Positions 5,506-9,205 of a DNA stretch of 40,264 nt are shown piece by piece; the first letter of the stretch is position 1, and each line of letters opens with the position of its first letter. The translations under genes and the position numbers were made by a program. Origin of the DNA: Gammaproteobacteria bacterium (lineage in GTDB: Bacteria > Pseudomonadota > Gammaproteobacteria > UBA6429 > Thiohalophilaceae). Below the pieces are notes generated by a model. It was not told the DNA's origin. It did no database searches and saw only the letters and a program-made list of their open reading frames with translations. The DNA is taken from assembly GCA_030594815.1 (NCBI GenBank), contig JAUVEN010000012.1, positions 1-40,264 on the forward strand, written 5' to 3'.

Positions 5506-5519
5506 TTGATCTAGATCAT
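5506..5519. promoter_or_regulatory. FNR/Anr-type binding site upstream of ubiT
   Basis: TTGATCTAGATCAT matches the FNR consensus TTGATnnnnATCAA at 9 of 10 fixed positions. A -10-like TATATT lies at 5542-5547. This would put +1 near 5554 and the centre of the dyad at about -41.5, the classical activator (class II) position. The ubiT start is at 5576. Direct sequence match; oxygen control is inferred. Confidence 0.7.
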
Positions 5520-5575: not shown

Positions 5576-6091
5576 ATGATGATTACTTTGAAGCCACTAA
5601 AACACTTTCTTCGTTTTGTTCCAGATAAGGTTCACACTCATTTAATAAGTCGAGTAGGTGGTCATTTAATGAATGGGCAAGCGATTACTTCTCGTTTGGA
5701 TTTCATGGAAGGTAAGCGGCTACAACTTACAATTAAAGATACGGGAAATTGTTGGAAGTTTGTTATTCGTAATAATCGATTAGTTGATGATGCTGGATCA
5801 AATAGTGTTGCTGATGTTCATATCTCGGGTGATTTAAAAACATTTTTATTGCTTGCGACAGGTAATGAAGATCCAGATAGTTTATTCTTCTCTCGCCATT
5901 TAAGTCTTGAAGGTAATACTGAAGACGGTTTGTATATCAAGAACCTGATTGATGCAATGGATTTTGATACAGGCGTTTATTTAAAATCTATTTTAGGACA
6001 AACTCTGGCAACTCGTATTGCTCCGGTGGTAGAACGGTTAGAGTTAAGTAAGCGTATACATAGTTTGAGTGAGAAAGTATTATTTAATTAA
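5576..6091 (+). CDS. ubiT: UbiT, SCP2-domain accessory factor of O2-independent ubiquinone biosynthesis
   Basis: SCP2 (sterol-carrier-like) lipid-binding protein of the UbiT (YhbT) family. In E. coli, UbiT works with UbiU and UbiV in anaerobic ubiquinone synthesis. The 171-residue product is the usual size. It shows PDKVHTHLISRVGGHLMNGQ at the N-terminus, the SCP2 core WKFVIRNNRLV..VADVHISGDLKTFLLLATG, and DPDSLFFSRHLSLEGNTEDGLYIKNLIDAMD, which is characteristic of UbiT. Two ATG codons (5576, 5579) are possible starts. It converges on ubiV and ubiU across repeat A1, so all three partner genes are together. An FNR-type dyad sits at 5506-5519. Assignment rests on the motif and on the partner genes. 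Confidence 0.93.
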   Translation: MMITLKPLKHFLRFVPDKVHTHLISRVGGHLMNGQAITSRLDFMEGKRLQLTIKDTGNCWKFVIRNNRLVDDAGSNSVADVHISGDLKTFLLLATGNEDPDSLFFSRHLSLEGNTEDGLYIKNLIDAMDFDTGVYLKSILGQTLATRIAPVVERLELSKRIHSLSEKVLFN

Positions 6092-6099
6092 TTGCACTA

Positions 6100-6228
6100 T
6101 GTAGGTCAGCCTTCAGGCTGACGCAGCGTTCGTTAACCGTATAATTTATTGTGTGAAGGGTATGTTTGGGTAATCGATTGGAGTTGTGGTTGTTTTTATA
6201 TTAGCGTCAGCCTGAAGGCTGACCTACA
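6100..6228. repeat. MITE-like element A1 with perfect 25-bp terminal inverted repeats
   Basis: The arms at 6100-6124 (begins TGTAGGTCAGCCTTCAGGCT) and 6204-6228 (ends GGCTGACCTACA) are exact reverse complements over 25 bp and enclose 79 bp. Each arm also contains its own 8-bp hairpin (GTCAGCCT/AGGCTGAC, loop TC). It fills the gap between the convergent stops of ubiT (6091) and ubiV (6236). No target-site duplication is obvious. The same arm motif recurs at 17573-17670. Confidence 0.88.
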
Positions 6229-6235
6229 AAATTAG

Positions 6236-7111
6236 TTAACAAGATTTCCAGTCAAGACCAGGTTGCCCATACCAGTAGCCATTACACCAGCCACCTTCGG
6301 GGATAGGCAATTCAATATTTGATGAATCATTATCAATGCTTTCTCTAAAGGCCTGGATAATTGAGGCCATATTTTCATCTTGTGGTGAAATACGTAGTAC
6401 ATCAATATTAAGTTCTTTTAGTTTATCAACAACAGATAATAAATTACTCGGTACACCTGATTGCAATTGAATGCCATTTATAAGAAATAGATTTTGATCC
6501 TCCTGAGTTTTCAATGACATACCTTTGTCAAACTGATCACATTTAAATTCGCATTGATCTTTGGGAATGTTAAATGCTCTTGCTGTAAAACAACGAGCAG
6601 AAAATGAAAGCGGGATGTTTCCATAAACAAACACTTCTGTTTCCATACCTTGTGGCTTTCCCTTTTGTAAATCAATAAGTGTTTTTTCTGACAGTTCGAT
6701 TGGTAAAACCCAACGTTTAGCGCCGGCGTCATGTAATACGGCTAATGTTTCGGCGTTATACATATTGATATGAGGGCCCGCGACATAACCTGTTTTACCA
6801 TTTAATAAATGAAGTGCAGAGGTGTCATTAGCTTCAACGGCATATTTTTCATTTGCACAGATCTTTTTAAGCTGAGCAAGTTCAGAGTCAGCAACCAATA
6901 AGGTCATGGTTGATAGAATCACTTCTTTACCTGCTGCTGTTAACTTTTCTGCAATCGTTTGCCAGTCTTCAAGTTTTAACTGACGTCTTTTAGAGCAAAC
7001 AACTTCACCAAGATAAACAATATCGACAGGAAGTTTTTCTACTTCTTCATAAAAGGAAAAGACTTTTTCTTTTGACCAAAAATATTGCAGTGGACCTAAT
7101 GAAAGCTTCAT
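6236..7111 (-). CDS. ubiV: UbiV, [4Fe-4S] U32-family subunit for O2-independent ubiquinone hydroxylation
   Basis: Peptidase-U32-like protein that with UbiU forms an iron-sulfur heterodimer needed for O2-independent hydroxylation steps of ubiquinone synthesis. The 291-residue product begins [21 protein letters not shown]. Four cysteines, C39, C174, C187 and C191, reproduce the pattern of the cluster ligands of E. coli UbiV (C39, C180, C193, C197, shifted by six). They are seen in [19 protein letters not shown] and [10 protein letters not shown]. It starts 19 bp after the stop of ubiU and is surely cotranscribed with it. Its 3' end faces ubiT across element A1. Confidence 0.95.
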
Positions 7112-7130: not shown

Positions 7131-8147
7131 TTATTGCCATGGACGATGATAAGCGCCTAAGGTATGAGAATTTCCTTCAGATAAATGATCAAGCCCTTCG
7201 ATCCATTCTTTATTCGGAGAATAATTTTCTAAATCAGCCTGACATGAATCAATAGCAGTCCGTAATATCCTGGTAACTTGTGCAACATAAGCAGGACTTC
7301 GTTGACGTCCTTCGACCTTAATTGCAGCGACACCCATTTTCATTATTTCAGGGAGTATAGGCAGAGTGTTTAGACTGGTAGGTTCTTCAATCGCATAAAA
7401 AGTATTGTTTTCAACTTGAAAACGACCTTTACATAAAGTTGGATAACCGGCGTTTTCGTCTGCACCATAACTATCAATCAATACGCCATTTAAGCGTGAC
7501 TGTCTTCCTTTAGGTGTTTCTTCCCACTTAACGGCTTTAGCAGGCGAACATACGCCACACGAGTTAGGAGACTCACCGGTTACATAGGAAGATAAAACAC
7601 AACGACCTTCAACCATGACACATAAACTACCAAAGCCAAAGACTTCAACTTCAACGGGGCTATTATCAATAACATTTTTTACTTGAGCGAGAGACAGTAC
7701 CCGAGGTAATACAACACGCTGAATATTGAAGTTGTCTTTAAAAAATCCAATGGCATGTTTATTTGTGGCTGAACCTTGCACTGAAAGATGTAAGCGTAAC
7801 TCAGGATAATTTCTTGATGCATAACGCATTAAACCTGGATCGGCCAGGATAACAGCATCAACCCCAAGCTTTGCTGCATTATCAATGGCTTTAGTCCAGA
7901 GTGACCAGTCTGCAGGTTGTGGAAAAGTATTTAAGGCTAATAAAACTTTTGCCTTTTTCTTATGGGCATAGTCAATGCCTGTTTGTGCTTCTTCAAAGCT
8001 GAAGTTTAATCCGGGAAAATTTCGTGCATTGGTAGCGTCACGAAAACCAATGTAGACAGCATCAGCACCGTTATCAACCGCTGCGCGTAAAGCTGGCAAA
8101 CTTCCTGCGGGACAAACAAGCTCAATTTTATTTTTTAGCGCTACCAT
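7131..8147 (-). CDS. ubiU: UbiU, [4Fe-4S] U32-family subunit for O2-independent ubiquinone hydroxylation
   Basis: Partner of UbiV. The 338-residue product starts MVALKNKIELVCPAGSLPAL and has the U32 core ADAVYIGFRDATNARNF. Cysteines C176, C183, C200 and C239 (GSLCVMVEGRC, CGVC, PTLCKGRF) match the spacing of the E. coli UbiU cluster ligands (C169, C176, C193, C232, shifted by seven). An additional Cys (C197) lies next to the third ligand. GGAGAA lies a suitable distance before the ATG at 8147. The start overlaps the 3' end of yhcC by 7 bp, which suggests translational coupling, and ubiV follows after 19 bp. Confidence 0.95.
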   Translation of the reverse strand: MVALKNKIELVCPAGSLPALRAAVDNGADAVYIGFRDATNARNFPGLNFSFEEAQTGIDYAHKKKAKVLLALNTFPQPADWSLWTKAIDNAAKLGVDAVILADPGLMRYASRNYPELRLHLSVQGSATNKHAIGFFKDNFNIQRVVLPRVLSLAQVKNVIDNSPVEVEVFGFGSLCVMVEGRCVLSSYVTGESPNSCGVCSPAKAVKWEETPKGRQSRLNGVLIDSYGADENAGYPTLCKGRFQVENNTFYAIEEPTSLNTLPILPEIMKMGVAAIKVEGRQRSPAYVAQVTRILRTAIDSCQADLENYSPNKEWIEGLDHLSEGNSHTLGAYHRPWQ

Positions 8148-9073
8148 GTACTTTGTTCTCCATATTTTATTCCCTGGCTATGACCGCGTTGCTTAAGTTC
8201 TGCTGTTATCCCGTTTAAAACATTCCATTTTTGTGAACACCATTCAGGAGCAAGCAGGATATCTTTTTGTGCGGTCCCCGTTAGACGGTGGAAGATGATT
8301 TCTTTAGGCGTTAAAGCAACTAAATCTGCAACAGTGTTGATGTATTCTTTTAAGCTTAGCGGCTGGTATTCTCCTCGTCGCCATTCATTTGCGAGAGCCG
8401 TTCCTTTAACAACATGTAGAGGATGAAGTTTAAGGCCTTCTACACCTTGTTCTAATACTCGTAATAAACTGATTTTGGCATGAGAATTATCTTCACCCGG
8501 CAGACCAATAATTAAATGAGTACATACAGAGAGTTGTCGACTATGTGCTGCCTTTATTGCTTTACAATATGTTGCGTAATCATGTCCGCGATTAACGCGT
8601 TCCAATGTTTTGTCGTAACTTGATTGCAAACCTAACTCTAACCAGACTTCATAACCTTGATCTTGATAATCACTCAGTAAATCTAAAACTTTGTCGGGTA
8701 CACAGTCTGGTCTTGTTCCAATGCATAGTCCAATTACATCAGGTTCAGCTAAAGCACTATCGTATAAACTTTTTAATATTTGCGGATCAGCATAAGTATT
8801 TGTGTAAGCTTGAAAGTAAGCAAGGTATTGCTGTGCACCGGTACGTTTAACTAATACTTTTCTGCCAGCATTAATTTGTTGATTAAGTGATGCAGGCTTT
8901 CGTCCATTAGGACTGAAAGAAACATTATTGCAAAAAGTACATCCGCCACGACCAATTGTTCCATCACGATTAGGACAGGTGAAGTCAGCATCAATTGCAA
9001 TTTTGTGCACGCGTTGCTGATGCTTATTCAACATCGACTGACCAAATGTATTTACATAGTTTGATAATATCAT
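8141..9073 (-). CDS. yhcC: YhcC-type radical SAM protein
   Basis: Radical SAM protein of the YhcC family (310 residues, family about 305-315). The iron-sulfur motif is the unusual long-spaced C-x11-C-x2-C seen in this family: C33, C45, C48 in FTCPNRDGTIGRGGCTFCNN. Other typical stretches are QAYTNTYADPQILKSLYDSA, LCIGTRPDCVPD and WLELGLQSSYDKTLERVNRGH. Its biochemical function is not firmly established. It overlaps ubiU by 7 bp and is the first gene of a set with ubiU and ubiV, behind an FNR-like dyad. That context suggests a role under low oxygen, possibly tied to ubiquinone or to tRNA/metal-cluster modification. The role is inference. Confidence 0.9.
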   Translation of the reverse strand: MILSNYVNTFGQSMLNKHQQRVHKIAIDADFTCPNRDGTIGRGGCTFCNNVSFSPNGRKPASLNQQINAGRKVLVKRTGAQQYLAYFQAYTNTYADPQILKSLYDSALAEPDVIGLCIGTRPDCVPDKVLDLLSDYQDQGYEVWLELGLQSSYDKTLERVNRGHDYATYCKAIKAAHSRQLSVCTHLIIGLPGEDNSHAKISLLRVLEQGVEGLKLHPLHVVKGTALANEWRRGEYQPLSLKEYINTVADLVALTPKEIIFHRLTGTAQKDILLAPEWCSQKWNVLNGITAELKQRGHSQGIKYGEQSTW

Positions 9074-9165
9074 TGTTTAAATTAGTGCAATAAATCCAAT
9101 AACCTTTTAAGTAAGTATGTAGCTTGGAGTAATTCTAAAAGTAGCTATAAATTATGAGGGGTACT

Positions 9166-9182
9166 TTATCGTTGAACGATAA
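9166..9182. promoter_or_regulatory. 17-bp dyad over the putative -10 of yhcC
   Basis: TTATCGTT-G-AACGATAA is a perfect dyad with 8-bp arms. It overlaps the -10-like GATAAA read on the minus strand (9170-9165), which is the position expected from the FNR-type site. It could be an operator for a second regulator. No repressor is identified. Confidence 0.4.
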
Positions 9183-9191
9183 GGTGCACTC

Positions 9192-9205
9192 TTGATCTTA
9201 ATCAA
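9192..9205. promoter_or_regulatory. Perfect FNR/Anr-type site upstream of yhcC-ubiU-ubiV
   Basis: TTGATCTTAATCAA matches TTGATnnnnATCAA at all ten fixed positions. Its centre is about 40-41 bp from a predicted +1 near 9158 on the minus strand (GATAAA at 9170-9165 as -10), and the yhcC start is at 9073. FNR control of ubiU/ubiV is known in E. coli; here it is inferred from the match. Confidence 0.75.

Follow-up and report, generated by a model that had tools for sequence, protein, structure and literature searches.

YhcC, a probable tRNA-modifying radical SAM protein, is encoded ahead of ubiUV behind an FNR-type promoter in a gammaproteobacterium

The control of ubiTUV by FNR is already published. 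Activation of ubiUV by FNR was shown in E. coli (PMC10470549; PMC11707229), and FNR sites are present upstream of ubiT, ubiU or both in 1362 out of 1566 ubiTUV triplets of the Pseudomonadota (PMC11707229). The E. coli operons yhcC and yhbUV are listed among those directly activated by FNR (PMC3688515). As to the modification of tRNA, conversion of cmnm5(s2)U to nm5(s2)U is carried out by MnmC(o), an FAD domain (PMC3936742), and a passage of a review puts MnmL beside MnmC for the formation of nm5s2U and cites experimental work on MnmL (PMC12548931, ref. 33). TrhP and RlhA, U32 relatives of UbiU, are both prephenate-dependent (PMC6599085).

The yhcC-ubiU-ubiV operon and its promoter

The window, that is, the whole stretch of 40,264 nucleotides analysed, holds, by its sequence, all three genes of a ubiTUV locus, and yhcC comes first in the operon with ubiUV. 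The features are as follows.

9192–9205, no strand assigned: FNR-type site TTGATCTTAATCAA, a perfect TTGAT-N4-ATCAA (10 out of 10), upstream of yhcC and conserved in the relatives L005–L008
9165–9170, minus strand: predicted −10-like element GATAAA (read 9170–9165), in a conserved block GATAAAGTACC at fixed spacing to the FNR site in L005–L008
8141–9073, minus strand: yhcC, radical SAM protein of 310 aa, TIGR01212 (MnmL/YtqA), Pfam Radical_SAM and Radical_SAM_C
8141–8147, minus strand: the end of yhcC and the start of ubiU overlap by 7 bp; a short overlap is also kept in L005–L008
7131–8147, minus strand: ubiU, subunit of the O2-independent ubiquinone hydroxylase, NF047963, 558.8 bits (cut-off 440)
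6236–7111, minus strand: ubiV, subunit of the O2-independent ubiquinone hydroxylase, NF047965, 369.7 bits (cut-off 275)
5576–6091, plus strand: ubiT, accessory factor of this pathway with an SCP2 domain, NF047962, 112.8 bits (cut-off 46.9), Pfam SCP2
5506–5519, no strand assigned: FNR-like site TTGATCTAGATCAT (9 out of 10), upstream of ubiT

The minus-strand operon is tight. The overlap between yhcC and ubiU suggests translational coupling of the two genes, and ubiV follows after a gap of 19 bp. This is the operon described in the sequence-only reading, and its coordinates hold, but that reading had overlooked ubiT, which is convergent with the operon, and the FNR-like site in front of it. The four 4Fe-4S cysteines of UbiU are C176, C183, C200 and C239, corresponding to C169/C176/C193/C232 of E. 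coli (PMC6747719) with an offset of 7; those of UbiV are C39, C174, C187 and C191, in a CXnCX12CX3C pattern like that of E. coli UbiV (PMC6747719). Both proteins thus have their four cluster cysteines along with scores above the model cut-offs, and UbiT is above the cut-off of its SCP2 model.

The stretch separating the end of ubiT from that of ubiV holds a perfect 25-nt inverted repeat (6100–6124 and 6204–6228, the arms separated by 79 nt). Each arm contains a near-palindrome (GTCAGCCTGAAGGCTGAC), and the whole looks like a REP/REPIN-type element.

A perfect FNR site by itself is unremarkable, 0.23 being expected per shuffled 40-kb window. When the 250 bp upstream of yhcC were shuffled 2000 times, no perfect site was obtained, and a site of at least 9 out of 10 arose in 1.2% of the shuffles of the 250-bp region upstream of ubiT. 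In L005–L008, the nearest relatives, the FNR site and the GATAAAGTACC block are retained at a constant spacing in otherwise diverged surroundings. With GATAAA taken as the −10 element, the FNR site would be centred near −41.5, which fits the class II arrangement of FNR promoters, both elements being seen in the sequence and in the footprint left in the relatives. The ten-of-ten consensus near −41 of a plausible promoter, as noted from the sequence alone, is thereby confirmed. The 17-bp palindrome TTATCGTTCAACGATAA (9165–9181) was considered as a site of a second regulator and rejected, as conservation is confined to its right half, the one overlapping the −10 element.

The sites upstream of yhcC are enriched among 76 related loci, in agreement with the anaerobic (FNR) control proposed earlier: 28 loci have a site of at least 9 out of 10 (1.2 expected from shuffles), and 12 perfect sites are found (0.03 expected). 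No site of at least 9 out of 10 is present within 300 bp upstream of ubiU in any related locus. Hence the FNR promoter belongs to the yhcC-led operon in these gammaproteobacteria. In E. coli, yhcC has an 8 out of 10 site 75 bp upstream. The betaproteobacterial loci (among L048–L084, the branch being assigned from database titles and the tree) retain the order yhcC-ubiU-ubiV with no FNR-type site of at least 9 out of 10 within 250 bp before yhcC, and thus shared control by FNR does not fully account for the linkage.

Family and conserved residues of YhcC

YhcC is not an orphan: judged by the match to the family model, it belongs fully to TIGR01212 (373.5 bits with a cut-off of 180, positions 2–301 out of 302), and E. 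coli YhcC and Listeria MnmL match the model at full length as well. The current NCBI name of the family is tRNA modification radical SAM protein MnmL/YtqA. The MnmL study (J Bacteriol 2024) reportedly dealt with B. subtilis and S. mutans. The earlier statement that the function of YhcC is not settled is therefore only partly right, the family being named after MnmL/YtqA and experimental work being cited for MnmL.

The cluster cysteines of YhcC are C33, C45 and C48 (CX11CX2C). We compared 81 YhcC proteins, from the window and the related loci, with nine proteins from other phyla. The three cysteines and 26 further positions are conserved at above 95% in both groups, and the window protein has these family residues; the positions invariant in both groups include C33, C45, C48, Q66, Y86, Q88, N92, T93, T120, R121, D123, C124, E146, R162, H186, K215, H217, T225, Y244, R263 and W278. 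The fixed differences between the groups are few and mild.

The only strong relatives with solved structures are Elp3 proteins, with the common blocks TRPD, elG.QS, RGH and H-PG. Elp3 enzymes modify the wobble uridine of tRNA. YhcC itself was rejected as an Elp3, since its score is 75.4 bits with a cut-off of 350, and it has only the radical SAM domains. The TIGR01212 gene of Listeria, Anoxybacillus and Enterococcus either overlaps with or directly adjoins a gene for a class I methyltransferase; that of Listeria is MnmM, and the MnmL gene directly precedes it. Given the MnmL/YtqA family, the MnmM neighbour in Listeria, the common residues and the Elp3 relatives, YhcC is most simply read as acting on U34 of tRNA. 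A divergent TIGR01212 gene is also found on the Selenomonas ruminantium plasmid pSR1 (L096, 4692 bp), directly after a gene of a B12-binding radical SAM protein.

The proteobacterial YhcC proteins form a separate branch (97% SH-aLRT support, in a quickly built tree whose branches are long), several residues are fixed in the ubiU-linked group alone, and the window's own genome has neither MnmM nor MnmC(m). This might reflect an MnmL-family radical SAM enzyme turned in the Pseudomonadota to some other substrate, tRNA or not, needed under low oxygen. We consider such a shift quite unlikely, as the family-wide residues are intact and few differences are fixed.

Linkage of yhcC and ubiUV across genomes

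A scan of species genomes with the window's YhcC yielded 80 loci, down to 61% identity, and in 75 of these yhcC is followed within 0.8 kb by ubiU on the same strand. Since these loci had been chosen by similarity, whole genomes were sampled as well, 276 spread over the class and 239 in a phylum sample. In the class sample, YhcC is present in 49 genomes, UbiU in 72, and both in 48 (Fisher p=2e-34, uncorrected for relatedness). The yhcC gene is directly upstream of ubiU in 38 genomes out of the 48, spanning 28 of 33 families. In the sole YhcC genome without UbiU (G085), YhcC is a fragment located where a contig ends, and MnmM is present. In the phylum sample, all 16 genomes with YhcC have UbiU, and all belong to the same class; where the two genes are separated, the distance is from 25 kb to 2 Mb. 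The sequence-only reading was to be given up if the co-occurrence of yhcC with ubiU and ubiV ended at close relatives, and it extends far beyond them (48/49, 16/16, 28 families).

The association is one-sided. UbiU occurs without YhcC in 24 of the 72 UbiU genomes of the class; in the phylum sample UbiU is present in 78 genomes, and all 43 of those outside the class have no YhcC. Hence YhcC is no general part of the UbiUV pathway. Conversely, TIGR01212 proteins are present without UbiU in the control genomes of B. subtilis, Bacteroides, Thermotoga, Lactococcus and Methanocaldococcus.

Within the class, YhcC could assist the anaerobic synthesis of ubiquinone in gamma- and betaproteobacteria, for example by providing or activating the donor of oxygen or by helping UbiU-UbiV to mature, with something else taking its place in genomes that lack it. 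The nearly strict dependence on UbiU, the adjacency in 28 families and the retention of the operon without the FNR motif in the betaproteobacterial branch agree with such a role. So does the locus L112 (3321–8080), where ubiT, yhcC, a FAD-monooxygenase-like gene (named from its N-terminus only), ubiU and ubiV follow on one strand, and O2-independent genes are mixed with a likely O2-dependent hydroxylase. Against it are the numerous genomes with UbiUV and no YhcC, the homologs in bacteria and archaea without UbiU, and the conserved residues, which are those of the MnmL family. Moreover, there is no obvious need for a further enzyme to provide the donor, given the dependence of TrhP and RlhA on prephenate (PMC6599085). 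On balance, we regard the accessory role as rather unlikely. The first guess of the sequence-only reading, that the ubiquinone route includes YhcC as one more component, is thus unsupported as a general requirement, although the class-wide co-occurrence with UbiU stands on its side.

Shared lifestyle was checked using NrdD, the anaerobic ribonucleotide reductase. UbiU is present in 19 out of 24 NrdD genomes of the class sample, and ubiTUV is inherited vertically (PMC11707229), as would be expected if yhcC and ubiUV merely both served facultative anaerobes and their adjacency came by descent. However, YhcC is present in 13 of the 19 NrdD genomes with UbiU and in none of the five without it (p=0.011, with small numbers and uncorrected for relatedness), the adjacency persists in 28 families, and E. 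coli retains FNR control of both after their separation. This makes lifestyle as the whole explanation very improbable.

Some loci have atypical arrangements. A gene of a TauD/TfdA-type dioxygenase (about 305 aa, e.g. L025:8736–9656), an oxygen-using enzyme beside oxygen-free quinone genes, is found in 22 loci and adjoins ubiV in 20 of these, in either orientation. At L106:3441–11451 (genome G031), yhcC is divergent from apparent ubiD-ubiU-ubiV, with ubiT and nrdG/nrdD-like genes adjoining. On a plasmid of Thiothrix fructosivorans (L086:3912–6914), yhcC is not before ubiU but tightly between serC and the 4-phosphoerythronate dehydrogenase gene, both of the pyridoxal phosphate pathway.

The yhcC gene is not mentioned in the main text, supplements aside, of PMC11707229 or of two E. 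coli ubiTUV papers, and a literature search produced no paper combining yhcC with "radical SAM". As far as could be searched, it is new that yhcC and ubiUV are associated so broadly and so strictly, and that this association coincides with the assignment of YhcC to the MnmL family.

Proposed role of YhcC and comparison with known systems

Set beside the observed gene order, family membership, common residues, FNR site and wide linkage, the reading we favour, with moderate confidence, is that FNR activates an operon of oxygen-independent enzymes, among which YhcC acts on tRNA U34. When oxygen drops, FNR would bind at 9192–9205 and turn on yhcC-ubiU-ubiV, while ubiT would be switched on separately. 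UbiU-UbiV, assigned here by homology to the proteins studied in E. coli, where this activity was shown, would hydroxylate the ubiquinone ring without O2. YhcC, being of the MnmL type, would most likely remove the carboxymethyl group of cmnm5(s2)U at U34, yielding nm5(s2)U, and hence would be the oxygen-independent counterpart of the FAD-using MnmC(o), which we infer to require O2. As YhcC most likely works on the wobble uridine, it would act in parallel with UbiUV rather than at a ubiquinone step; of the two earlier guesses, the parallel role under low oxygen fits best.

That both yhcC and yhbUV are listed as directly activated by FNR in E. coli (PMC3688515), though they are about 50 kb apart, counts for the tRNA reading. 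Counting against it, the presence of UbiU with YhcC in 48/49 and 16/16 genomes is not predicted by a tRNA role alone; nor do the NrdD contrast (13/19 and 0/5, p=0.011, uncorrected for relatedness), the betaproteobacterial operon with no FNR site and the window's genome with no known methylase completing mnm5U favour it. A lineage-specific working part in anaerobic ubiquinone synthesis, or a link between that synthesis and the modification of the tRNA wobble uridine, in the gamma- and betaproteobacteria would account for YhcC being almost never found without UbiUV there, and we give this a low, if appreciable, probability.

The window's genome has no MnmC(o), MnmC(m) or MnmM (PF06962), and no known methylase to complete mnm5U. 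If the tRNA reading is right, YhcC would therefore be the only known enzyme of this genome converting cmnm5(s2)U to nm5(s2)U, and the latter may be the final product or be methylated by a further enzyme. MnmC is present in 3 of 49 YhcC genomes and in 60 of 227 others (p=0.001), whereas within the UbiU genomes the respective counts are 3/48 and 1/24. Since the contrast is gone there, mutual exclusion of YhcC and MnmC was discarded as proof of replacement, and the low frequency of MnmC among YhcC genomes does not count as separate evidence. MnmM was rejected as the partner of YhcC, being missing from the window's genome and from 44 of the 49 YhcC genomes.

A class I SAM methyltransferase gene (about 220 aa) separates yhcC from ubiU in five loci of gammaproteobacteria (L011, L016, L025, L027, L032), and one follows ubiT in a betaproteobacterial locus (L064:4069–4728). 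The window's genome has a homolog (53% identity) elsewhere, at C85:5–604. The methyltransferase of the five loci matches none of the known U34 methylase families; it is a candidate partner of YhcC, in an arrangement that recalls the MnmL-MnmM pair.

Taken together, YhcC is probably a tRNA-modifying enzyme, judged from its family and setting, and is predicted to be co-expressed with UbiUV from one low-oxygen promoter; the evidence fails to show a role of YhcC in making ubiquinone. Operon, regulator and phyletic pattern thus tie a tRNA-modification family to anaerobic respiration, and a direct test becomes available for E. coli yhcC, which is listed among the FNR-activated genes but has no assigned role. 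If true, facultative anaerobes would keep oxygen-independent enzymes for U34 modification as well as for ubiquinone synthesis and U34 hydroxylation.

Compared with the FNR-controlled ubiTUV loci of E. coli and the 1566 loci of the Pseudomonadota, the window has the same ubiU-ubiV pair, with ubiT nearby and FNR sites upstream, but its operon begins with yhcC, and it is yhcC rather than ubiU that the FNR site precedes. Elp3 has a related radical SAM core and C-terminal domain, whereas YhcC (310 aa) has no acetyltransferase domain and scores 75 bits against 350. The MnmL-MnmM (YtqA-YtqB) operon of the Bacilli encodes a protein of the same family, TIGR01212, with the same conserved residues as the window's YhcC, but in the window the partner is ubiUV, MnmM (PF06962) being neither a neighbour nor present in the genome. 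The pair TrhP/TrhO, for O2-independent and O2-dependent hydroxylation of tRNA U34, likewise provides a U34 step with an O2-independent enzyme. Unlike TrhP, YhcC is a radical SAM enzyme, and its proposed counterpart MnmC(o) is missing from the window's genome; by analogy, YhcC would be to MnmC(o) what TrhP is to TrhO, and what UbiUV is to the O2-dependent hydroxylases.
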